Below are positions 1-9,443 of a DNA stretch of 9,443 nt, in pieces. This DNA is from Solobacterium sp. (GTDB lineage Bacteria > Bacillota_I > Bacilli_A > Erysipelotrichales > Erysipelotrichaceae). The notes beneath the pieces are model-generated. The model worked only from the letters and a program-made list of their open reading frames with translations, ran no database searches and was not told the DNA's origin. The DNA lies in the NCBI GenBank assembly GCA_017543025.1, contig JAFYGX010000178.1, forward strand, positions 1-9,443, written 5' to 3'. Numbering within the stretch: position 1 is the first letter of the stretch; each line of letters begins with the position of its first letter. The position numbers and the translations under genes were made by a program.

Positions 1-57
1 ACTTCAACATACATAGGAATAACCGGGAATACAGAAAATCAAAATGCTTGACATAAA

Positions 58-81
58 AAACATGGCAACCAAGCCATGTTT
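58..81. terminator. Stem-loop, possible weak or bidirectional terminator
   Basis: AAACATGGC (58-66) pairs perfectly with GCCATGTTT (73-81) around a 6-nt loop. On the minus strand the stem runs into six T (complement of A55-A60), a good terminator tail. On the plus strand only a poor tail follows (GAAGATTTT). It could end a minus-strand gene lying left of the window or be a leftover of the upstream transcript. No coding sequence is recognisable in positions 1-121. Confidence 0.35.
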
Positions 82-121
82 GAAGATTTTCAGCATGTAT
101 CAAGTTTAAAACTCAGGAGAT

Positions 122-170
122 GACAGATCTGTGAATCGCAGCAATGCGGTTTCCGGATCTGTCTTTTATT
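122..170 (+). terminator. Intrinsic terminator upstream of the pgk operon
   Basis: Positions 122-163 fold into a nearly continuous hairpin of about 20 pairs. The outer arms are GACAGATC and GATCTGTC. The apical stem is CGCA/TGCG closed by a GCAA tetraloop, with one T/C mismatch and some G-U pairs. It is followed at once by TTTTATT (164-170). This is the shape of a Rho-independent terminator and probably ends a gene left of the window. A leader attenuator for pgk is the alternative, but pgk has its own promoter downstream, so simple termination is preferred. Confidence 0.7.
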
Positions 171-201
171 ATGCCTGGCGGAACGAAACGAACCAGTTCT
201 G

Positions 202-250
202 CCGTTATCTGCTCATGTGCATTCTCTGGCATGCATGAGGAGATAACCGG
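202..250. repeat. Imperfect inverted repeat between terminator and pgk promoter
   Basis: TTATCT-G-CTCATG (205-216) is mirrored by CATGAG-G-AGATAA (234-246) with a single G/G mismatch, and flanking CCG/CGG bases extend it. It lies 50-100 bp upstream of the pgk promoter and outside the likely transcript, so it could be a regulator-binding dyad. It does not match the CggR operator or a CcpA cre site. No protein can be assigned to it. It may also be a degenerate mobile-element remnant. Confidence 0.35.
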
Positions 251-301
251 GGAAGATGGAGAAGCAGGAAAGAAATTCACAAAGAATTCATGGTTTGGTC
301 G

Positions 302-331
302 TTTACTCGGTTTCTTGCGTGATGTTATAAT
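302..331 (+). promoter_or_regulatory. Extended -10 promoter of the pgk-tpiA-eno operon
   Basis: A perfect TATAAT (326-331) is preceded by TGT, giving an extended -10. A fair -35, TTTACT (302-307, 4 of 6 consensus), sits 18 bp upstream. Transcription would start near 338, leaving an untranslated leader of about 27 nt that already contains the AAAAGGAGGAG ribosome binding site (343-353). This fits a strong housekeeping sigma factor promoter for highly expressed glycolytic genes. Confidence 0.75.
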
Positions 332-364
332 ATTCACGCCATAAAAGGAGGAGATTTATAATTT

Positions 365-1546
365 ATGTCTAAGGTTACTGTTAGGGATCTGGACGTTAAG
401 GGCAAGCACGTAATTGTACGTGTCGATTTTAACGTACCGCACAAGGGAGAAGTCATTACGGATGACAACCGTATTCAGGCTGCGCTCCCGACAATTAATT
501 ACCTGACGGAGAATGGCGCAAAAGTTCTGCTCTTGAGCCATCTCGGAAAGGTGAAGACGGATGAGGACAAGGCTAAGAACGATATGGCAATCGTTGCGAA
601 GCGTCTGGCAGAAGTACAGAGTGCCCCTGTTACATTCGTTAATGCGACGCGTGGTGAAGAACTCGAAAATGCAGTAAAAGCGCAGGAGAACGGCTCCATC
701 GTTCTCATGCAGAACACCCGCTATGAAAAAGGCGAATCCAAAAACGATCCGGAACTTGGAAAGTACTGGGCAAGCTTGGGTGAAGTGTTCGTTGAAGATG
801 CATTCGGTTCTGTTCACAGAGCACACGCTTCCACTGTCGGCATTCCGTCCAACCTGAAGGAAGTTGCTGTAGGCTTCCTTGTAGAAAAAGAACTCAATGT
901 TCTCGGTAAGGCACTGAACGACCCGCAGCGTCCGTTCGTTGCGATTCTCGGCGGTGCAAAAGTTTCCGACAAGATCGGTGTCATTGACAACCTTCTGAAG
1001 ATTGCAGATAAAGTCCTGATCGGCGGCGGTATGTCTTATACCTTCGCAGCAGCTGTCGGCGGCAAGATCGGCACTTCGCTGCTTGAAGCAGATAAGATGG
1101 ATATGGCAAAAGAATTCCTTGCCAAGGGTGAAGGCAAGCTCTTCCTGCCGGTTGATACGGTAGTAGCGAATGACTTCTCCAACCCGACTGAGATTAAGAC
1201 CGTTAAGGCCGGCGAGATTGACGACGGCTTCATGGGCCTCGATATCGGTCCGGAGACAGTGAAGGAATTCCAGAAGCAGCTCGAAGGTGCGAAGACCGTA
1301 TTCTGGAACGGCCCGATGGGTGTGTTCGAAGATCCGCGTTTCGCAAAGGGAACCGAAGAAATCTGCAAGACACTTGCAGAGCTTGAAGGTGCTACTACAA
1401 TCATCGGCGGAGGCGACAGTGCGAGCGCTGCGAAGAACCTCGGTTTCGCAGAGAAGTTCAGCCACATTTCCACCGGCGGCGGAGCATCCCTGGAATACAT
1501 GGAAGGAAAGGAGCTCCCGGGTGTAGCGATTATCCCGGAGAAGTAA
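365..1546 (+). CDS. pgk: Phosphoglycerate kinase
   Basis: Cytosolic glycolytic kinase that transfers the acyl phosphate of 1,3-bisphosphoglycerate to ADP, giving ATP and 3-phosphoglycerate. The 393-aa length is normal for bacterial PGK. Substrate-site residues are visible: VRVDFNVP (Asp21, Asn23), Arg36 in DDNRI, His59 in SHLGK, Arg119 in NTRYEKG and Arg152 in HRAH. The nucleotide-binding domain shows GGAKVSDKI (196-204), WNGPMGVFE (314-322), GGGDSA (348-353) and GGGASLEY (371-378). [14 protein letters not shown] and [16 protein letters not shown] resemble the Staphylococcus/Erysipelotrichia type. The start at 365 is set by the long purine-rich ribosome binding site at 343-353. First gene of the operon; its stop is four bases before tpiA. 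All recognised residues are intact. Confidence 0.98.
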
Positions 1547-1550
1547 TAAC

Positions 1551-2303
1551 ATGGCAAGAAAACCTATTATTGTTGGAAACTGGAAAATGAACAAAACCCC
1601 TTCTGAAGCAGAAGAATTCATGAAGGGCATCGAACAGGTCCTCACCGGAACCGAAGCTGCTGATTACGGCGTCGGTGCTCCGTTTGTGGATCTTGATGTA
1701 TGCGTAAAGAATGCGAAGAATCTCATCATTGCGGCGGAAAACTGCAATGAAAAGGATTCCGGTGCATATACGGGTGAAGTATCCGTTCCGATGCTGAAGG
1801 AAGTAGGTATTACCTACTGCATCATCGGTCACAGTGAGCGCCGCACATACTATGCGGAGACTGACGCGGCATGTGCTGCCAAGGCAAAGAGACTGCTCGC
1901 AGACAATATCATTCCGATTCTCTGCATCGGTGAAACCGAAGCACAGTATGATGCAGGTGAGACAGCAGATGTCATCAAGAGCCAGCTCGCAGGAAGCCTC
2001 GAAGGCCTGACTGCGGAAGAAGTTGCAAAGATGGTTATCGCATATGAGCCGATCTGGGCAATCGGAACCGGAAAATCCGCTGACGAGACAACTGCGGAAA
2101 ACTGCTGCAAGCTCGTTCGCGACACGGTCTGTGCGCTCTATGATGCGCCGACTGCAGAAGCAGTTCGCATTCAGTACGGCGGAAGCGTTAAGCCGACCAA
2201 CATCAAATCCTACATGGCGTGCCCGGATATCGACGGTGCGCTGATCGGCGGAGCGTCACTCAAAGTTGATTCCTTCAAGGAAATCATCGACGCAACCAAA
2301 TAA
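1551..2303 (+). CDS. tpiA: Triosephosphate isomerase
   Basis: Interconverts dihydroxyacetone phosphate and glyceraldehyde 3-phosphate in the cytosol, feeding both trioses into lower glycolysis. The 250-aa TIM barrel is of usual length. The active site is complete: Asn10 and Lys12 in GNWKMN, His94 in IIGHSERR, and Glu166 in AYEPIWAIGTGKSA, which also carries the mobile lid (loop 6). The phosphate-binding YGGSVKP (209-215) and GALIGGASL (229-237) close the barrel. The ATG lies four bases after the pgk stop. Its ribosome binding site, CGGAGAAG (about 1536-1542), sits inside the end of pgk, so the two are probably translationally coupled. It shares the pgk promoter, and no promoter of its own is evident. 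Confidence 0.98.
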   Translation: MARKPIIVGNWKMNKTPSEAEEFMKGIEQVLTGTEAADYGVGAPFVDLDVCVKNAKNLIIAAENCNEKDSGAYTGEVSVPMLKEVGITYCIIGHSERRTYYAETDAACAAKAKRLLADNIIPILCIGETEAQYDAGETADVIKSQLAGSLEGLTAEEVAKMVIAYEPIWAIGTGKSADETTAENCCKLVRDTVCALYDAPTAEAVRIQYGGSVKPTNIKSYMACPDIDGALIGGASLKVDSFKEIIDATK

Positions 2304-2305
2304 GG

Positions 2306-2331
2306 TTTCAGGAAGACAGAGTCTTCTGAAA
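2306..2331 (+). other. Intercistronic hairpin between tpiA and eno
   Basis: TTTCAGGAAGAC (2306-2317) pairs with GTCTTCTGAAA (2321-2331) around an AGA loop, with one bulged G: 11 pairs in all. No T-run follows, so it is unlikely to terminate transcription. It may be an mRNA processing or stabilising element that tunes the ratio of eno to pgk-tpiA message. No separate eno promoter is apparent downstream of it. Confidence 0.45.
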
Positions 2332-2364
2332 TATAGCAGTTAAGGTATTGAAGGAGGAAAATAA

Positions 2365-3744
<1,380 letters not shown>

Positions 3745-3761
3745 TCTTCTGATGGCTGGAT

Positions 3762-3814
3762 GATCCTGCATACGGCAAGGTGCTTTACCTTCCCGCTGTG
3801 CGGGATCTTTTTTT
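3762..3814 (+). terminator. Strong intrinsic terminator of the glycolytic operon
   Basis: Positions 3762-3807 form a long hairpin of about 19 pairs. The outer stem is GATCCTGCA with TGTGCGGGATC. The inner stem is AAGGT (3777-3781) with ACCTT (3787-3791) around a GCTTT loop, with only a bulge and a C/C mismatch. Seven T follow (3808-3814). It lies 17 bp after the eno stop and separates the operon from the downstream gene. Confidence 0.9.
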
Positions 3815-3934
3815 GCGGAATTGCACATCTGAACATCCGGTAAGGAGTATAGTAGAAGAAAGAAAAACACAGATCGGGCGTTTACTGACAGCTGACTGAC
3901 GGCGGAAAGTTCAGATCTGAAGCGGGAGAACACT

Positions 3935-5131
3935 ATGGAATACAGGGAACTGCTTTTTAATGACGAACGGGGAAATCCGATCCTTTCAATGATTCTTCCG
4001 GAAGGTTCTGTGACGCAGGCGCGGGTACAGACGGAGAACCGGAACGGAGAAGTTAAAGTGAATTATACGGTTCAGGCAAAAGGACTGGGCGGATCGTTTG
4101 AGCTGTATGCAAAGAATGGGGGCTCATATGCGGATAGTACCGGCGGAGCATCTGATGTCATTGAACACAGGCCGTGTGATGCGGCTGAGCAGATCAATGA
4201 GTATGCAAGAGCGTTTGTCTCTCAGACGGGCGAACCTTCGAATCTGTTTTCCCTGCCGCCAAAGCGGATGGAACAGTTAGCCAGGGATGTGCAGATATAT
4301 TGCGCGAAGTCGGCAGAGACTGCCGCACAGGTAGCGGCGATGCAGTCGGTGCCGATCAGGGTGAACTGCGTACAGCAGATTGCGGACGGAGGCATCGGTA
4401 TTTATCCGTTCATGAACGAAGGAACCCGGTATACGCTGCTGACGGCAATCTGGCGCATCGGAATGACACAGGAAATGACGGTGGATATGTCCGGATACGG
4501 AATGATGCAGCAGATGCCGCCAAAGTATATTACAAGCTGGTATGTACCGCTGTCGCTATATATGATTGTTTCGAAAGAAATCGGCGAGGATGATCTTCGG
4601 ACATTTGTAAATGCAGTGAACACTGTGAAAGCTGTACCGGCGTTTGATGCCTGGTGCAGGCAGATTGAAGAGCAGAACACGGCAAAGCAGATGAACGATG
4701 CGCATCAAGCGGCTATGCAGAATCAGGCGATGATCGATCAGATGTGGGCTCAGCATAATGCCGCATGGGCAAGAACGGAAGCGATGAGCAGATCTCTTTC
4801 ACGGGATATGGATTCCTTCCGGGCGGGGCTTGCGGCAAACAGCGCCTCAATGGATGCGTTCCGTGAGAATCTGAATTCGTCGCTTGGCGGTTCAGGTTCA
4901 TCCGGCTTCGGGGAAGGCGGCGAGTCACTGGATGACAGAATTCAGCGCGGCCGGCATGAAGCGATGATGGGCGTTAATACCTATGTCAGGGAAGACGGGA
5001 CAGATTATGAACATACGATCATGAATGACCGGGTATTTGAAAACAACCTGAATCAGAATGATCATTTCGGAACTGAGAATTATTACGGAGACTATGTGCC
5101 GGATGGCTGGCATGAGATTTTCAGGAAATAG
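3935..5131 (+). CDS. Conserved-looking hypothetical cytoplasmic protein
   Basis: I do not recognise this 398-aa protein. It has no signal peptide or clear membrane segment, so it is probably cytoplasmic. Residues 1-75 look like a beta-rich glycine-containing domain. Residues 80-235 form a mixed globular region rich in aromatic residues (FMNEGTRYTLL, YITSWYVPLSLYMIV). Residues 240-315 are Gln/Met/Ala-rich and predicted alpha-helical, probably coiled coil. A Gly/Ser linker (318-330) leads to a compact C-terminal module (336-398) ending ENYYGDYVPDGWHEIFRK. The start at 3935 has GGGAG (3924-3928) six bases upstream, beside a perfect palindrome TCAGATCTGA (3911-3920). Only a weak -10 (TATAGT, 3848-3853) without a good -35 is seen upstream. 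It stands alone between the eno terminator and the mobile element, which begins 28 bp after its stop. Confidence 0.85.
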   Translation: MEYRELLFNDERGNPILSMILPEGSVTQARVQTENRNGEVKVNYTVQAKGLGGSFELYAKNGGSYADSTGGASDVIEHRPCDAAEQINEYARAFVSQTGEPSNLFSLPPKRMEQLARDVQIYCAKSAETAAQVAAMQSVPIRVNCVQQIADGGIGIYPFMNEGTRYTLLTAIWRIGMTQEMTVDMSGYGMMQQMPPKYITSWYVPLSLYMIVSKEIGEDDLRTFVNAVNTVKAVPAFDAWCRQIEEQNTAKQMNDAHQAAMQNQAMIDQMWAQHNAAWARTEAMSRSLSRDMDSFRAGLAANSASMDAFRENLNSSLGGSGSSGFGEGGESLDDRIQRGRHEAMMGVNTYVREDGTDYEHTIMNDRVFENNLNQNDHFGTENYYGDYVPDGWHEIFRK

Positions 5132-5159
5132 CAGAAAGAGAAAAATACCCCCGGGAAAA

Positions 5160-5198
5160 TAAACTGGTCCCATGAAGACGTACAGAACATTGACAGTT
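5160..5198 (+). repeat. Left terminal inverted repeat (IRL)
   Basis: Reading inward from 5160, this 39-bp segment matches the inward-read right end at 26 positions with no gap. Shared blocks are TAAACTGG (offset 0-7), CC (10-11), GTACA (20-24) and TTGACAGTT (30-38). Identical offsets of all blocks on both sides fix the outer boundary at 5160, unless the repeat extends past the window on the right. Confidence 0.8.
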
Positions 5199-5225
5199 CT
5201 GAACGGTCTTGATGGGGCCGGTTTT
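5164..5225 (+). terminator. Long hairpin in the left end, likely blocks read-through transcription
   Basis: Positions 5164-5173 pair with 5212-5221 (10 pairs, two of them G-U), then 5175-5179 with 5206-5210, then CAGAAC (5183-5188) with GTTCTG (5196-5201) around a 7-nt loop. One G/G mismatch and one small internal loop interrupt it. TTTTC follows at 5222. It may also serve as the terminator of the 3935-5131 gene, which has no other terminator before the element. IS elements often carry such structures at the left end to limit transposase expression from outside promoters. Confidence 0.6.
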
Positions 5226-5265
5226 CATTTCAGCGGAGACTCGGGTAAAGCTGATCTGATAATGG

Positions 5266-5283
5266 CCGGAAAGGAGTTTCCGG
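5266..5283 (+). promoter_or_regulatory. Shine-Dalgarno hairpin of the first transposase
   Basis: CCGGAAA (5266-5272) and TTTCCGG (5277-5283) form a perfect 7-bp stem whose four-base loop is exactly GGAG (5273-5276), the core of the ribosome binding site for the ATG at 5288. The stem ends five bases before the start codon. The structure could hinder ribosome loading, or hold the GGAG exposed in the loop. Either way it should set the translation level of the transposase. Confidence 0.55.
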
Positions 5284-5287
5284 TGCT

Positions 5288-7195
5288 ATGGGAAAGAAAA
5301 AAGCAAGTGCGCGGCAGTTCACCGAAGAACAGATCAACAGATTTAAAGCAGATCCGAATGTACGTGACATTGATAAACGTTCTTTGCGGTTCAAATATGC
5401 CTTCCGGGTAAAGATGTATGAGGCCTGGGAGAAAGAAGGCCGTCAGGGAGTTAAGAGGGTTCTGAGTGAAAATGGGTATGATCTGAAAGAACTTGGGAAA
5501 GATTTTATTAGTGGTCTATGCAAATCTTTCAAACGTCATGGCCGCCCTTCCAATGCAAAAGGTGATAATCCTGTCGGATGCCGATCTTATTACCGGGCAG
5601 ACAAGGCAGATGATGAATATCTCCTGGGCACTGGCAAATTCAGAAAATGCAGAAATGGTATTGTCTTCACAGAGAAATTTCAAAACGATCTGTTCTCTGC
5701 GTATCCGGAACAGTCCATTGAGGATGGCCTGCGGAAAGCCGGCATCGATCCTGTGAGAGTTGGCTACCAGCGCATATACACCTTGAAAAGACTGTTTGAC
5801 GGTGCCCGCACAGAACCGAGGAAAATCTGTTACTCTAGTGAAATCGTTGAATCTTATAGCGAGCATCCCTATATAGAATCAATTACCGCGATACAGCTGA
5901 GGTTCAGTAAAGCTTTCTTCAACGAAGCTTTGTTTCTGATCGAGATTATGGACATTGATGAGATTCTGAAGCTGTATGAGATTGAACCGGCAGATCTTCC
6001 TGTTTCCGTCAGAGTCAATCTGTCTTATAAGCTGAGGTCATGGAAAAGAACGGATGACCGGTGTACTGAAGTATCAGAACAACGCGTAAGGATACAGTAT
6101 GGCAGGTATCAGAAGCTCTTTCAGCTGCGGGAAGAACGCTTCAGAAGGATACGGGAAGAAGAGCTCCCACACATGTCGCTTCCCGAGAAGAAACAGCTGT
6201 GTCAGTGGATACAGGGGTATCCGGCTGACCCGATGCGGGTTGTCAGCACAGAATATCTTCTGAAGAAGATCGGTATCTCTCACTCTTCGTACTACTCTAT
6301 TCTCCGTGACGATCATTACGGCATGACGGCGGCTGAAAAAGACGAACAGGATGAACGGGATATCAAGGTGATCCGCAGAGTAATGGAATACCGCGGCTTC
6401 CGCAAGGGAACCCGGCAGATCTATATGATGATGCCAGACGTCACCGGCGATCACTTCTCCAGGAATAAGATCAGGCGGCTTATGAAGAAGTTCGGTGTTC
6501 ATTCCGGGCTGCGGGAAAGGAAACAGTCGAGGATTGATGCGAGAAAACTTCTGGAGGAACACAAGAAAGATAATCTTCTGAAGCGACGATTCCGCCTTGC
6601 ACGACCAAATGAGCACATCCTTACGGATGTGACCTATATCCACTACGGAGACAATAAGCTTGCCTATGGCTCCGCCTCCATAGATGCGGTTACCGGAAGG
6701 CTGTATAACTTTTCGGTAAGTGAGAGTAACGATCTTCAACTGGTCATCAGCACTGTCGACGCCCTTGACGGCATTGAGATGAAACCCGGCGCTATCTTTC
6801 ACAGTGATCAGGGTATCCTTTACCTTAATGAAACATTTCAGAAAAGAATTGAGAAGCTTGGCCTGCGACAGTCCATGTCAAAACGCGGAAATTGCTGGGA
6901 CAACGCTCCCCAGGAAAGCTTCTTCGGCCACTTCAAGGATGAGTGCAGCTATCAGGGCTGCGCGACATTTGAAGATCTGGCAGAGCACATATCGGAGTAT
7001 GCAGTTTACTACAACAATGAGCGCCGGCAGTGGAACAGAAACCGAATGACACCTGTGCAGTATGAGAAATATCTGAACGAGCTCAGCGAGGAAGAATTCA
7101 ACGAATATCTCCGGGCAGAAGAAGCCAGATATCAGGCGATGAAAGACCGCGCTGCAGATGAGGCAAGGCAGAGAGGAAAAACTCTTGGCGTCTGA
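5288..7195 (+). CDS. IS3-family DDE transposase, single-frame form (635 aa)
   Basis: Cuts and joins element ends through an RNase H-like DDE domain. The catalytic triad is visible: Asp447 in LTDVTY, Asp507 in FHSDQG and Glu543 in PQESFFGHFKDE. The last two are separated by 35 residues, as in the IS3 family, and the following Lys550 is also kept. Upstream are an HTH_21-like linker region (about 355-435), a basic segment with an SHSSYY motif (331-336), and two related N-terminal helix-turn-helix modules (about 10-85 and 125-170). In most IS3 elements the N- and C-terminal parts are two frames joined by a -1 frameshift. Here they are one continuous frame. The start at 5288 uses AAGGAG (5271-5276), which lies at a hairpin loop. 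The C terminus (from about 600) is Glu/Arg/Ala-rich. It precedes orfA by 29 bp and may be co-transcribed with it. Confidence 0.93.
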   Translation: MGKKKASARQFTEEQINRFKADPNVRDIDKRSLRFKYAFRVKMYEAWEKEGRQGVKRVLSENGYDLKELGKDFISGLCKSFKRHGRPSNAKGDNPVGCRSYYRADKADDEYLLGTGKFRKCRNGIVFTEKFQNDLFSAYPEQSIEDGLRKAGIDPVRVGYQRIYTLKRLFDGARTEPRKICYSSEIVESYSEHPYIESITAIQLRFSKAFFNEALFLIEIMDIDEILKLYEIEPADLPVSVRVNLSYKLRSWKRTDDRCTEVSEQRVRIQYGRYQKLFQLREERFRRIREEELPHMSLPEKKQLCQWIQGYPADPMRVVSTEYLLKKIGISHSSYYSILRDDHYGMTAAEKDEQDERDIKVIRRVMEYRGFRKGTRQIYMMMPDVTGDHFSRNKIRRLMKKFGVHSGLRERKQSRIDARKLLEEHKKDNLLKRRFRLARPNEHILTDVTYIHYGDNKLAYGSASIDAVTGRLYNFSVSESNDLQLVISTVDALDGIEMKPGAIFHSDQGILYLNETFQKRIEKLGLRQSMSKRGNCWDNAPQESFFGHFKDECSYQGCATFEDLAEHISEYAVYYNNERRQWNRNRMTPVQYEKYLNELSEEEFNEYLRAEEARYQAMKDRAADEARQRGKTLGV

Positions 7196-7224
7196 TATCA
7201 TGTACGGAGATTGGAGAAAAGTGA

Positions 7225-7746
7225 ATGTCGGGACGAAACAAACAGGAAGAAAGAAGTCTTGAGCAGAAAGCAGTGATCGCAGGAGTTAAGCTGGATGAGC
7301 TTCCGGAAGAGATCCGGGAAGCGTTTGCGAACGACTATGTAGAGACTCTGCGCAAGGGAAAGCTTGTCTACAGCCAGGACTTCTACAAGGCCATGGTAAA
7401 GCATGTCAAAGAAGACCATATGACCTATGTGGAGGCTTACAAAGCCTGCGGCTTTAATGTCGCTGCCCTTGGAAAGGATCGCGCCAACGCTGCAGGGAAG
7501 CGTGCTATGGCAATGCACAAGGACGGCAGCCTGTACCGAATACTGCCGACGGATATGGATGCGACAGTTCCGCTGAGCCGTATGGACCGGTCTATGGACG
7601 ATGCCCACAAGCTCGCTTACTTTGAGGCAAGGTGTATGTATCTCGAAGCGGAACTCGAATACGAGCAGGAAAAAAAACGATTACTATATCTGGAGAATCT
7701 TTCCAGATTGCAGAGAATGATGGGGAAAAGAGAAAAAGGAAACTGA
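7225..7746 (+). CDS. IS3-type OrfA of the second transposase
   Basis: A 173-aa DNA-binding half of an IS3-family transposase. Residues 45-95 form a helix-turn-helix-like module (VYSQDF at 48-53, GFNVAALGKD at 76-85) that resembles the two N-terminal modules of the upstream transposase. Residues 128-165 are Leu/Glu-rich (MYLEAELEYEQEK, LLYLENL) and fit the leucine-zipper multimerisation helix of IS3 OrfA proteins. GGAG (7213-7216) lies eight bases before the ATG. An in-line GTG at 7221 is less likely. Its 3' part overlaps the orfB frame, which is -1 relative to it, and carries the A8 slippery run. Made alone, such OrfA proteins usually bind ends and repress. Fused by frameshift, they form the active transposase. 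Confidence 0.88.
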   Translation: MSGRNKQEERSLEQKAVIAGVKLDELPEEIREAFANDYVETLRKGKLVYSQDFYKAMVKHVKEDHMTYVEAYKACGFNVAALGKDRANAAGKRAMAMHKDGSLYRILPTDMDATVPLSRMDRSMDDAHKLAYFEARCMYLEAELEYEQEKKRLLYLENLSRLQRMMGKREKGN

Positions 7747-9056
7747 CCGTCGCAGATAAAATCATTCAAGTGGCCGGCGAACTGTTTCCAGAATCCGCAA
7801 TACTTCGTATGTGCAGGGTAAGCCGCTCCAGTTATATGGAACGCAGAAAGGCACAGGAGGCAGCGGAAGAACGGGAAACGGAAAAGACACAGAAAGAAGA
7901 TGGAATAAAGGAATGCATGCGCAGGATCATCAAGAAGATTTCGTTCGTTCCGGGAGAACGGGTCTTCAAGTCATTTCTCTGGAGAGAATATGAGTGCAAT
8001 GTTGGGCGTAAGCTGATCCGCAGACTGATGGCAGAGATGAATCTCGTCGCAGCCACTCCGAAGAAAGATGCATATAAAGGAAAAGCCAAACATGATCACC
8101 CCTGCACAGCACCTGAAAACCTTGTGAACCAGAATTTCCGTGTTGAACCGCGGCATATCATATGCACCGACATCACTTATCTCTACTTCGGAATTCTTCG
8201 TACAACCATATATCTCTGCGTTTTTCGTGACGCATTCACCAAAGAGATCCTTGGCTGGTCAGTAAAACGCCAGATGACCACAGATCTGATCAAGGCAGCG
8301 TATAAAATGATGATGACCAAACATGGCAATGAGCTTCGTGGCAAGAACACATCTGTTCTGGTCCACAGCGACCAGGGTTCCCAATACCTGTCATTTACCT
8401 TCAAAAAGCTGCTTGAAAATGATGGGTTTCTTCAGTCGGTATCAGCGCGTGGCAACAGCCAGGACAACGCAGCCTGTGAGGCATTCTTCTCCCGGCTTAA
8501 GACGATGGTTCTCGACCCTGTTTCGCTCTGCCGGAGCTTAGATCAGGCAGAGAAGATGCTCGATGGCTGTATTAATCAGTACAATAACGAAATCTATGAG
8601 TTGGACCTTGCCGGGCTGACACCGCATGAGTTTTACCTTTACTGCGTGACAGGTGTCTATCCCTGCGAAGATTACTTCGGCGTAAAAGCAACAGAGCTTG
8701 ATTCCCTTGAATCTATTGTGCAGAGAAACCTGAAACGGCAGGAAGAACAGGCGGAGAAGAGACGGGAACAGAGTCAGGAACGAAACCGGGCCGCTCAGCT
8801 TCTGAAGAAGGACCCGGTTCAGATCACAATTGAAGATCAGCTGCTTCTGGAACGAGTGATCAGACGATACAAGAAACACCGGGATAAAATCGACGATGAG
8901 ATCAAACAGCTGGAAGAAGTGCTGTCTCAGGCGAAAGCTGCTCAGAAGTTCCTTTCCGCCATGCCGGAAGAAGAACGCAGAAAATACGGCACACCGCAGG
9001 CCTGGCAGACAGAACCTCATCTGAATTACATCTACGGTATGGCTGGATTGTTCTGA
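7632..9056 (+). CDS. IS3-type OrfB (DDE catalytic part) of the second transposase, expressed by -1 frameshift
   Basis: The frame opens with GTG at 7632 (474 aa) but has no convincing ribosome binding site. Entry by -1 frameshifting near 7671-7677 is more likely and would give a fusion of about 610 aa (151 from orfA plus 459). The DDE triad is intact: Asp180 in CTDITY, Asp247 in VHSDQGSQY and Glu283 in NAACEAFFSRLK, with 35 residues between the last two. Early residues 40-70 (ADKIIQ..., SRSSYMERR) match the start of typical OrfB. After the catalytic domain ends near residue 340, a further 130 residues continue. They are strongly charged and helical (365-440, coiled-coil-like) and end in a short aromatic tail (HLNYIYGMAGLF). 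IS3 OrfB is usually about 280-300 aa, so this extension is unusual. Confidence 0.9.
   Translation: MYVSRSGTRIRAGKKTITISGESFQIAENDGEKRKRKLTVADKIIQVAGELFPESAILRMCRVSRSSYMERRKAQEAAEERETEKTQKEDGIKECMRRIIKKISFVPGERVFKSFLWREYECNVGRKLIRRLMAEMNLVAATPKKDAYKGKAKHDHPCTAPENLVNQNFRVEPRHIICTDITYLYFGILRTTIYLCVFRDAFTKEILGWSVKRQMTTDLIKAAYKMMMTKHGNELRGKNTSVLVHSDQGSQYLSFTFKKLLENDGFLQSVSARGNSQDNAACEAFFSRLKTMVLDPVSLCRSLDQAEKMLDGCINQYNNEIYELDLAGLTPHEFYLYCVTGVYPCEDYFGVKATELDSLESIVQRNLKRQEEQAEKRREQSQERNRAAQLLKKDPVQITIEDQLLLERVIRRYKKHRDKIDDEIKQLEEVLSQAKAAQKFLSAMPEEERRKYGTPQAWQTEPHLNYIYGMAGLF
7671..7708 (+). promoter_or_regulatory. Programmed -1 ribosomal frameshift signal (orfA to orfB)
   Basis: An A8 run (7670-7677) is read in orfA as GAA AAA AAA CGA, giving the slippery string A_AAA_AAA at 7671-7677. 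Ten bases later a perfect 7-bp hairpin follows, ATCTGGA (7688-7694) with TCCAGAT (7702-7708) around a 7-nt loop. Sliding back one base moves the ribosome into the orfB frame. A-rich slippery runs with a downstream stem are the known IS3-family arrangement. Confidence 0.75.
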
Positions 9057-9404
9057 TACATCTCGGATCTCCTCGTGCCCCTGAAGGGGCGTCGTCGCTC
9101 CGAAGGTTTTCTTGCGGTAATGGGCTGCCAAAAGAGGAAAAGGATCCTAGCCAATCATGGCGTCAGATCCCTCCTCTACAAAATCTCTTTTGTATAGCCG
9201 TCACAATACCGTTCGTGGTCGGACCTCTCCGGAGCCATTGATCTCTCTTGTGACGCATTGATTATACTGCATAATTTCTGATTTGATTCAGCTCTTCGAA
9301 GAAAGAGAATTTTCCTGTGATACAGACCATTTGAAAACGCAGGTTGTGAGCCAGGGGTGGCTCCTTCCTGCGTTTCATTTTTCCTGCCTCCAGACAAATC
9401 TCGA
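9057..9404 (+). other. Noncoding, hairpin-rich segment before the right end
   Basis: About 350 bp with no credible gene on either strand. It contains a chain of stem-loops: CGGA...TCCG (9064-9102) enclosing GCCCC-TGAA-GGGGC; AGAGG/CCTCT with GGATC/GATCC and GCCA/TGGC (9133-9177); TACAAAA/TTTTGTA (9177-9194); CGTCACAA/TTGTGACG (9199-9255) enclosing TGG/CCA and CGGA/TCCG; ATTAT/ATAAT (9261-9275); CTGA/TCAG (9278-9291). An intrinsic terminator closes it. It could be a structured 3' untranslated region or a small RNA of the element. Typical IS3 elements have only a short gap between orfB and the right end. Confidence 0.5.
9335..9382 (+). terminator. Intrinsic terminator near the right end of the element
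   Basis: AAACGCAGG (9335-9343) pairs with CCTGCGTTT (9367-9375), and GAGCCA (9348-9353) with TGGCTC (9358-9363), around a GGGG loop. The tail CATTTTT (9376-9382) follows. It would end the transposase transcript or a small RNA inside the element, 22 bp before the right inverted repeat. Confidence 0.8.
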
Positions 9405-9443
9405 AACTGTCAAACAATTGTACTTGACAAGGGTTCCAGTTTA
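9405..9443 (-). repeat. Right terminal inverted repeat (IRR)
   Basis: Read on the minus strand from 9443 inward, it matches the left end at 26 of 39 positions without gaps (blocks TAAACTGG, CC, GTACA, TTGACAGTT at identical offsets). On the plus strand it reads AACTGTCAA at 9405-9413 and ends CCAGTTTA at 9436-9443, the last base of the window. Confidence 0.8.
9424..9443 (+). promoter_or_regulatory. Outward -35 half of a predicted circle-junction promoter
   Basis: A consensus TTGACA (9424-9429) in the right end points outward, with 14 bp left to the element end. When the ends abut in an IS3-type circle with the usual 3-bp spacer, the first six bases of the left end, TAAACT (5160-5165, 4 of 6 to TATAAT), fall exactly 17 bp downstream. 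This is the layout of the IS911-type junction promoter. It would drive the first transposase only in the circular form. Confidence 0.6.

Follow-up and report, generated by a model that had tools for sequence, protein, structure and literature searches.

A 4.3-kb IS3-type element from Solobacterium sp. carrying two divergent DDE transposases between one pair of ends

Contig JAFYGX010000178.1 of Solobacterium sp., analysed over positions 1 to 9,443 (all 9,443 nucleotides (nt), hereafter the window), carries at 5160-9443 an insertion sequence (IS) of the IS3 type, 4.3 kb in length, in which a transposase, T1, is followed by an orfA/orfB-type pair, A2-B2. Its two ends, 5160-5198 and the reverse complement of 9405-9443, are identical at 26 of 39 ungapped positions, confirming a count given in an earlier note made from the letters of this DNA: position 5160 is the top-scoring left-end site in the window, the runner-up scores 20, and none of 200 shuffled right ends scored 26 anywhere in the window. 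The end sequences were found again in relatives of the element. The last base of the window, and with it of the contig, is the outermost one of the right end (9443); the source contig was probably broken there by a repeat. The features are as follows.

5160..5198, + strand: left terminal inverted repeat, outer tip TAAACTGG (26/39 against the right end; 21 left ends of the group aligned)
within 5160..5198, + strand: TAAACT of the left tip, the -10 half of a predicted circle-junction promoter
5166..5225, + strand: left-end terminator-like hairpin, its 5' arm inside the inverted repeat, then the T-run GGTTTTC (fold and pattern scan)
5190..5196, + strand: left-end inner box TTGACAG (GACA in 21/21 left ends)
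5288..7195, + strand: transposase T1, 635 amino acids (aa) in a single frame (open reading frame, profile matches, alignment)
7225..7746, + strand: A2 (orfA-like), 173 aa, with one helix-turn-helix (HTH)-type domain (hhalign; weak tblastn)
7632..9056, + strand: B2 (orfB-like) frame, DDE core and conserved C-terminal extension (open reading frame, profile matches, alignment)
7671..7677, + strand: slippery heptamer A-AAA-AAA, for a predicted -1 frameshift from A2 into B2 (36/36 loci)
9335..9382, + strand: terminator-like hairpin between B2 and the right end, AAACGCAGG...CCTGCGTTTCATTTTT (pattern scan, stem 9352-9370)
9405..9443, - strand: right terminal inverted repeat (end comparisons)
9407..9413, - strand: right-end inner box TTGACAG (GACA in 19/20 right ends, most of them picked by a pattern holding the motif)
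9424..9429, + strand: outward TTGACA, predicted -35 half of the junction promoter (TTGAC in 19/20 right ends, most of them pattern-picked)

Two transposases in one mobile unit

Both T1 and B2 match the NCBIfam IS3 transposase profile NF033516, with 211.4 and 202.3 bits, respectively (cut-off 160). T1 comprises three N-terminal HTH-type repeats, a coiled coil, HTH_21 and the DDE core, with the triad D447-D507-E543; that of B2 is D180-D247-E283, and in each protein 35 residues lead from the last D to the E. In wider alignments of 42 T1 rows and 38 B2 rows, where identity to the window proteins falls as low as 38% for T1 and 35% for B2, none of the DDE residues varies; the rows were hand-chosen (22 T1 and 19 B2 frames from the window and loci, plus 20 and 19, respectively, of 120 listed homologues each), and cut or broken copies were excluded. 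The profile scores and the invariant alignments thus bear out the claim of two divergent IS3-type transposases with complete D-D-35-E triads. A sequence search with the transposases against solved structures gave no match at E ≤ 0.01, and the fold-search matches listed cover mainly the integrase core, the N-terminal repeats having been searched as part of the whole rather than alone.

On closer view the second transposase is an orfA/orfB pair, with the B2 frame -1 relative to A2: the domain of A2 aligns with T1 repeat 1 (hhalign probability 95.4), and A2 gives a weak tblastn match to the orfA region of ordinary IS3 elements in 18 of 56 loci. Where A2 and B2 overlap, each of 36 loci (near-duplicates counted) has a slippery A-AAA-AA[A/G] in the frame of A2, and B2 is in the -1 frame of A2 in 34 of these, L014 and L179 being the exceptions; expression of A2-B2 is predicted to proceed by -1 frameshift. 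T1 and A2 are separated by 29 bp (7196-7224). As had been claimed, no IS end lies in this spacer, since a search of 7101-7300 for the end motif (8-mers, at most one mismatch) returned a single match, at 7287, which falls within A2.

This gene content recurs well beyond the window. A genome scan of one genome per species with T1 as query gave 584 loci, of which the best 80 were analysed; 24 of these (L001-L024) are T1-type, with T1 identities of 38-60%, and in all 24 A2- and B2-like frames follow T1 in the same order. The N-terminal residues of T1 are included in 22 of the 24, L020 and L022 being clipped by the contig start. The other 56 loci match the catalytic part of T1 alone, and B2 scores no more than 150 bits in any of them. 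Among 315 genomes of one order, the 11 genomes with a B2 match are the same 11 that have a T1 match (the T1 set being 10 genomes plus G025, with few candidates scored per genome); in G186, the halves of the element sit at contig ends. Together, the invariant DDE residues, the retained slippery site, the correlation between T1 and B2 distances described below and the co-occurrence of the two proteins suggest that both enzymes are under selection, and both are apparently active.

Copies, target duplications and an empty site come from relatives, the right flank of the window's own element lying beyond the contig. The complete genome G306 holds nine copies of 4,006-4,008 bp, which share at least 99.8% identity with the first copy and terminate at identical bases, and a second complete genome, G298, holds four copies of 3,945-3,946 bp. 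A pattern for the two ends, with one mismatch allowed, recovers nine pairs of left and right ends in G306 and four pairs in G298, the two ends of each pair lying approximately 4 kb apart. Duplications of 3 bp flank 12 of these 13 copies and 15 of 19 relatives' sites in all (the 13 copies included), L162, L006, L012 and L017 being the sites without one. Contigs L002 and L003 start and stop exactly at the two element ends, and the 14 elements with both ends measure 3,946-4,606 bp. Of 11 matching plasmid records, none covers 80% of T1. The earlier note had proposed to look for each transposase alone between its own ends; G306 and G298 hold no one-transposase derivative between TTGACAG-type ends at up to one mismatch, a limit that more diverged ends would escape.

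An empty site is provided by the comparison of G003 with G022. The G003 flanks, left on contig C60 (L242) and right on contig C43 (L008), give a TGA duplication, and the orthologous locus of G022, which matches the left flank at 91% over 1,480 columns and the right flank at 94% over 1,561, has no element; the two G003 contigs are linked through this comparison, not by assembly. At the insertion point G022 carries an intact terminator-like hairpin, AAAAAGGTCGTGAACGTTGTATTCACGACCT, whose arms GTGA / TATTCACGA are preserved on both sides of the junctions, with approximately 35 nt by the left junction and 9 nt by the right too diverged to align. It is thus the whole interval that was inserted. At a second site, that of L168, the element is absent from G307, but the intergenic stretch has diverged. 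Because near-identical copies share their ends, left and right ends all pair, 3-bp duplications flank the copies and an empty site exists, we consider it virtually certain that an element of the type at 5160-9443 moves as one unit, as the earlier note had proposed.

Two copies are decaying, although both keep their ends and target duplications: L173 (G298) has a split T1, and L163 (G306) a disrupted B2 frame. G306 also has a lone right end with one mismatch and no partner left end (G306:C1:1876521-1876558).

Ends, targets and origin of the two transposases

All 21 left ends start TAAA[A/C]TG and have GACA in the inner box, the tip being TAAACT in 16 (the window included) and TAAAAT in 5; these counts are partly circular, as the left ends of L008, L017 and L180 were found with the inner box in the rule. 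An outward TTGAC is present in 19 of 20 right ends, a count that is likewise partly circular because most right ends were found by a pattern containing GTCAAG and TGACAG. The same motifs occur in the right ends that were fixed by a contig edge or by copy comparison, namely those of the window, L002, L003, L007, L011, L019, L022, L161 and L170. For L018 and L023, no right end was found within 1 kb. Counted across a 3-bp spacer, 17 nt separate the outward TTGACA from the left tip. Nucleotides 21-24 (GTAC or GGAC) match between both ends in 12 of 14 elements, an agreement that suggests the same reader at both ends.

The left end also forms a terminator-like hairpin. With at least five of nt 7-12 paired and the arm followed by at least four T in 8 nt, it was found in 20 of 21 left ends and in 36 of 1,050 mononucleotide shuffles; a pattern scan placed the match in the window at 5204-5220, and 8 of 11 consensus pairs show two-sided changes, a comparison made without tree-based covariation control. 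Such a hairpin should block transcription entering from outside. We considered whether junction transcripts, which would start at about nt 13 in the 5' arm, evade this terminator. A fold begun at nt 13 gives a weaker hairpin (-12.3 to -26.1 vs -26.0 to -38.9 kcal/mol), and a paired base still adjoins the T-run in 17 of 21 left ends, so that evasion is poorly supported by the fold. Several relatives also have strong stems in the last 100 nt of the right end.

Much of this architecture is common to one-transposase relatives. These are the 56 loci matching T1's catalytic part (L025-L080), mostly from Firmicutes and 1.4-1.6 kb long, whose ends were located by outer motifs, the right in 53 and the left in 51. 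They have the outer ends TAAAATGTACCC / GTCAAGGAC, the junction-promoter halves and the left hairpin with its T-run; the hairpin is there partly by selection, its formation having been required of their left ends, and four copy-defined one-transposase elements show it too. The idea that left hairpin and junction promoter are specific to the two-transposase element was therefore rejected. What differs is the inner box, which lay outside the search rule: in the relatives it is an A-tract in 41 of 44 distinct right ends and 39 of 45 distinct left ends, and TGACA occurs there in none of either.

The relatives also choose similar targets. Insertion in terminator-like hairpins was found at 29 of 42 one-transposase sites (each at p<0.05) and 3-bp duplications at 23 of the 42, a set that includes two sites with masked flanks and several from one species. 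The two-transposase elements lie in such hairpins at 8 of 19 sites (binomial p 1.8e-6), or at 8 of 13 when palindromes are scored more strictly. Controls were random positions in the same flanks, not only intergenic ones, and the preference may owe something to selection against harmful insertions. Targeting thus does not trace to B2, an explanation rejected because the one-transposase relatives do likewise. Because targeting, outer ends and promoter halves are common to these relatives, they are, on this comparison, traits of the T1 lineage; the two-transposase group is marked, so far as sequence can tell, by B2, by two extra T1 DNA-binding repeats and by the change of the inner box from A-tract to TTGACAG. 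No report of a terminator preference, or of an own left-end terminator-like hairpin, in ordinary TAAAATGTACCC-ended IS3 elements was found among open-licence PubMed Central (PMC) papers.

In the window, the left flank (5132-5159) directly follows the stop codon of the gene upstream; its terminal AGAAAAATACCCCCGGGAAAA could be half of a split terminator, whose other half would lie beyond the window. For that gene (3935-5131, 398 aa), which stands between the element and an enolase-like gene, no Pfam or NCBIfam family scores above its cut-off.

T1 and B2 form separate clades, with support of 100 each, in a tree of 27 elements from which 10 others were dropped as near-duplicates or cut. Their distance matrices are correlated (Mantel r 0.74, with none of 9,999 permutations as high). 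Mean core identity is 27% between T1 and B2, 39% between T1 and ordinary IS3 and 31% between B2 and ordinary IS3, the ordinary set having been drawn by likeness to T1. When rooted on Escherichia coli IS2, with IS3 and IS150 included, the tree nests T1 among one-transposase elements (support 92), with one such element, L221, outside that group, and B2 appears as sister of the T1/one-transposase group (support 100 for both together). T1's nearest one-transposase relative is L030 (support 100 with T1), which has a 444-aa single-frame transposase. Among 250 genomes from the family to which G007 belongs, no close one-transposase relative of B2 was found; there, 3 of 21 matching places are in two-transposase elements and 17 of the 18 others score higher with T1 than with B2, the last, L221, scoring higher with B2 at approximately 31% identity. 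A search of viral contigs for such relatives was also negative.

Tandem duplication of T1 is disfavoured by this tree, while an approximately unbiased (AU) test leaves a sister pairing of T1 and B2 unrejected (p 0.095, from 2,000 replicates, a number the program calls too few). An old fusion of two elements, one of the origins suggested in the earlier note, therefore holds only in part: in the best tree T1 and B2 belong to different IS3-type lineages, and the remaining ends are solely those of the T1 lineage, but the sister pairing stays unrejected.

Roles of the two enzymes and comparison with known systems

We propose that the element would move by copy-out/paste-in, one end being joined to the other across 3 bp to form a circle whose junction would assemble a TTGACA-17-TAAA[A/C]T promoter driving T1-A2-B2. 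T1 and the A2B2 frameshift product would form one mixed complex on the two ends that they share, the TTGACAG box being read by the T1 repeats and/or the A2 domain, and both active sites would be used in the asymmetric copy-out, plausibly one on the donor end and one on the recipient end. For families that move by copy-out/paste-in, IS3 included, PMC7780238 describes a fusion (junction) promoter, bipartite ends and an asymmetric step; there, the outer part of IS3-type ends is met by the catalytic domain and the inner box by the N-terminal domain. Given that division, the switch of inner box is in keeping with altered DNA binding, by either the T1 repeats or A2.

A partner acting on the same ends is our best reading of the second transposase, one of the roles the earlier note had put forward, and it is favoured because both catalytic sites are invariant. 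We lean, by a little, towards a mixed T1/A2B2 complex on the shared ends. On the fuller proposal, a transpososome of two unlike DDE transposases in which each active site is needed, the unlike subunits fix the asymmetry and the pair reads TTGACAG through an enlarged HTH array, we are evenly divided.

Several observations weigh against this interpretation. A single enzyme moves T1's one-transposase relatives, whose outer ends and targets are the same, so that a second is unneeded in principle, and the co-occurrence and conservation of T1 and B2 would also be expected if the enzymes worked in sequence. As for the predicted signals, 16 of 21 left ends, that of the window among them, have a poor junction -10, TAAACT; terminator-like sites in 5100-9443 number 3 against 3.8 expected, and promoter-like sites in the window 4 against 4.5.

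The main rival, which we regard as unlikely, splits the labour in time: one transposase would make the circle and the other would integrate it, without a mixed complex. Invariance of both active sites is as this view would have it, the full A2B2 product needs a frameshift while T1 does not, so that their amounts should differ, and the two steps differ in symmetry (PMC7780238). Single-transposase relatives, however, must do both steps with one enzyme, and the one common set of boxes at the ends, in which nt 21-24 usually agree, suggests the same reader for both.

It is doubtful that one transposase is a regulator or competitor that binds the ends while only the other works, as the earlier note had also suggested. 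OrfA-type products act as regulators in classical IS3 elements, and in the one-transposase relatives an enzyme of the T1 lineage is enough alone. A pure regulator, though, could lose its triad and its slippery site, and here both triads are invariant down to the low identities given above and the slippery site is kept. It is very improbable that B2 is a selfish transposase hitch-hiking on T1 with no role in movement; its different lineage in the best tree and the lack of an end motif in the T1-A2 gap to pair with it would suit such a passenger, but B2 accompanies T1 in 24 of 24 T1-type loci and has co-diversified with it, and the inner end box is unlike that of the one-transposase relatives. 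Neither a pair of separate, adjacent IS3 elements nor an assembly artefact is tenable: two ordinary relatives of 1.4-1.6 kb would total about 3 kb, and the nine and four copies in complete genomes, with paired ends, 3-bp duplications and an empty site, refute both.

Among mobile elements, insertion sequences are the minimal kind, and those that move by copy-out/paste-in depend on one protein for both the asymmetric and the symmetric reactions. The present element offers a natural setting in which to ask why two transposases are retained. With two distinct DDE enzymes, their catalytic residues intact, on one pair of ends, the sharing of steps by subunits is directly testable through single catalytic mutants, and one-transposase relatives with the same outer ends and targets isolate the contribution of the second enzyme.

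The element resembles the IS3 family (IS911, IS2, IS3, IS150) in its transposase family, the DDE triad with 35-residue spacing, the -1 orfA/orfB arrangement of A2-B2, the sequence layout of a predicted junction promoter and a target duplication within the 3-5 bp range (3 bp, in relatives). It departs from that family in having two transposases, a length of 3.9-4.6 kb (3,946-4,606 bp in 14 elements, where one transposase in 1.2-1.6 kb is the norm), three N-terminal repeats in the single frame of T1, and ends that start 5'-TA in place of 5'-TG...CA-3'. In open-licence PMC papers we found neither a report of two DDE transposases in one IS3-type element nor an IS3 group said to target terminators; ISfinder and subscription papers were outside this search, and novelty is accordingly provisional. 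With its one-transposase T1 relatives the element shares outer ends, the left hairpin, 3-bp duplications and terminator targets; theirs is a single transposase in 1.4-1.6 kb, with an A-tract inner box.

More than one catalytic protein is also found in Tn7, whose TnsA+TnsB form a heteromeric transposase in which TnsA is a restriction-type nuclease; here, both proteins are DDE integrase-type enzymes of one family. IS1397 and ISKpn1 carry one transposase. These IS3 elements insert in extragenic palindromes according to PMC1525189, and the present element is like them in its preference for hairpins or palindromes, theirs being palindromic units (repetitive extragenic palindromes, REP) and those reported here terminator-like hairpins. 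The 56 one-transposase relatives are probably IS1447-like, to judge from PMC6211511, in which IS1447 is placed within the IS3 family with 5'-TA ends, 3-4 bp repeats and +1 transcriptional slippage. The 5'-TA ends are shared by the two-transposase element, which differs from IS1447 in having two transposases and in having A2-B2 in the -1 frame (34/36 loci) rather than +1.

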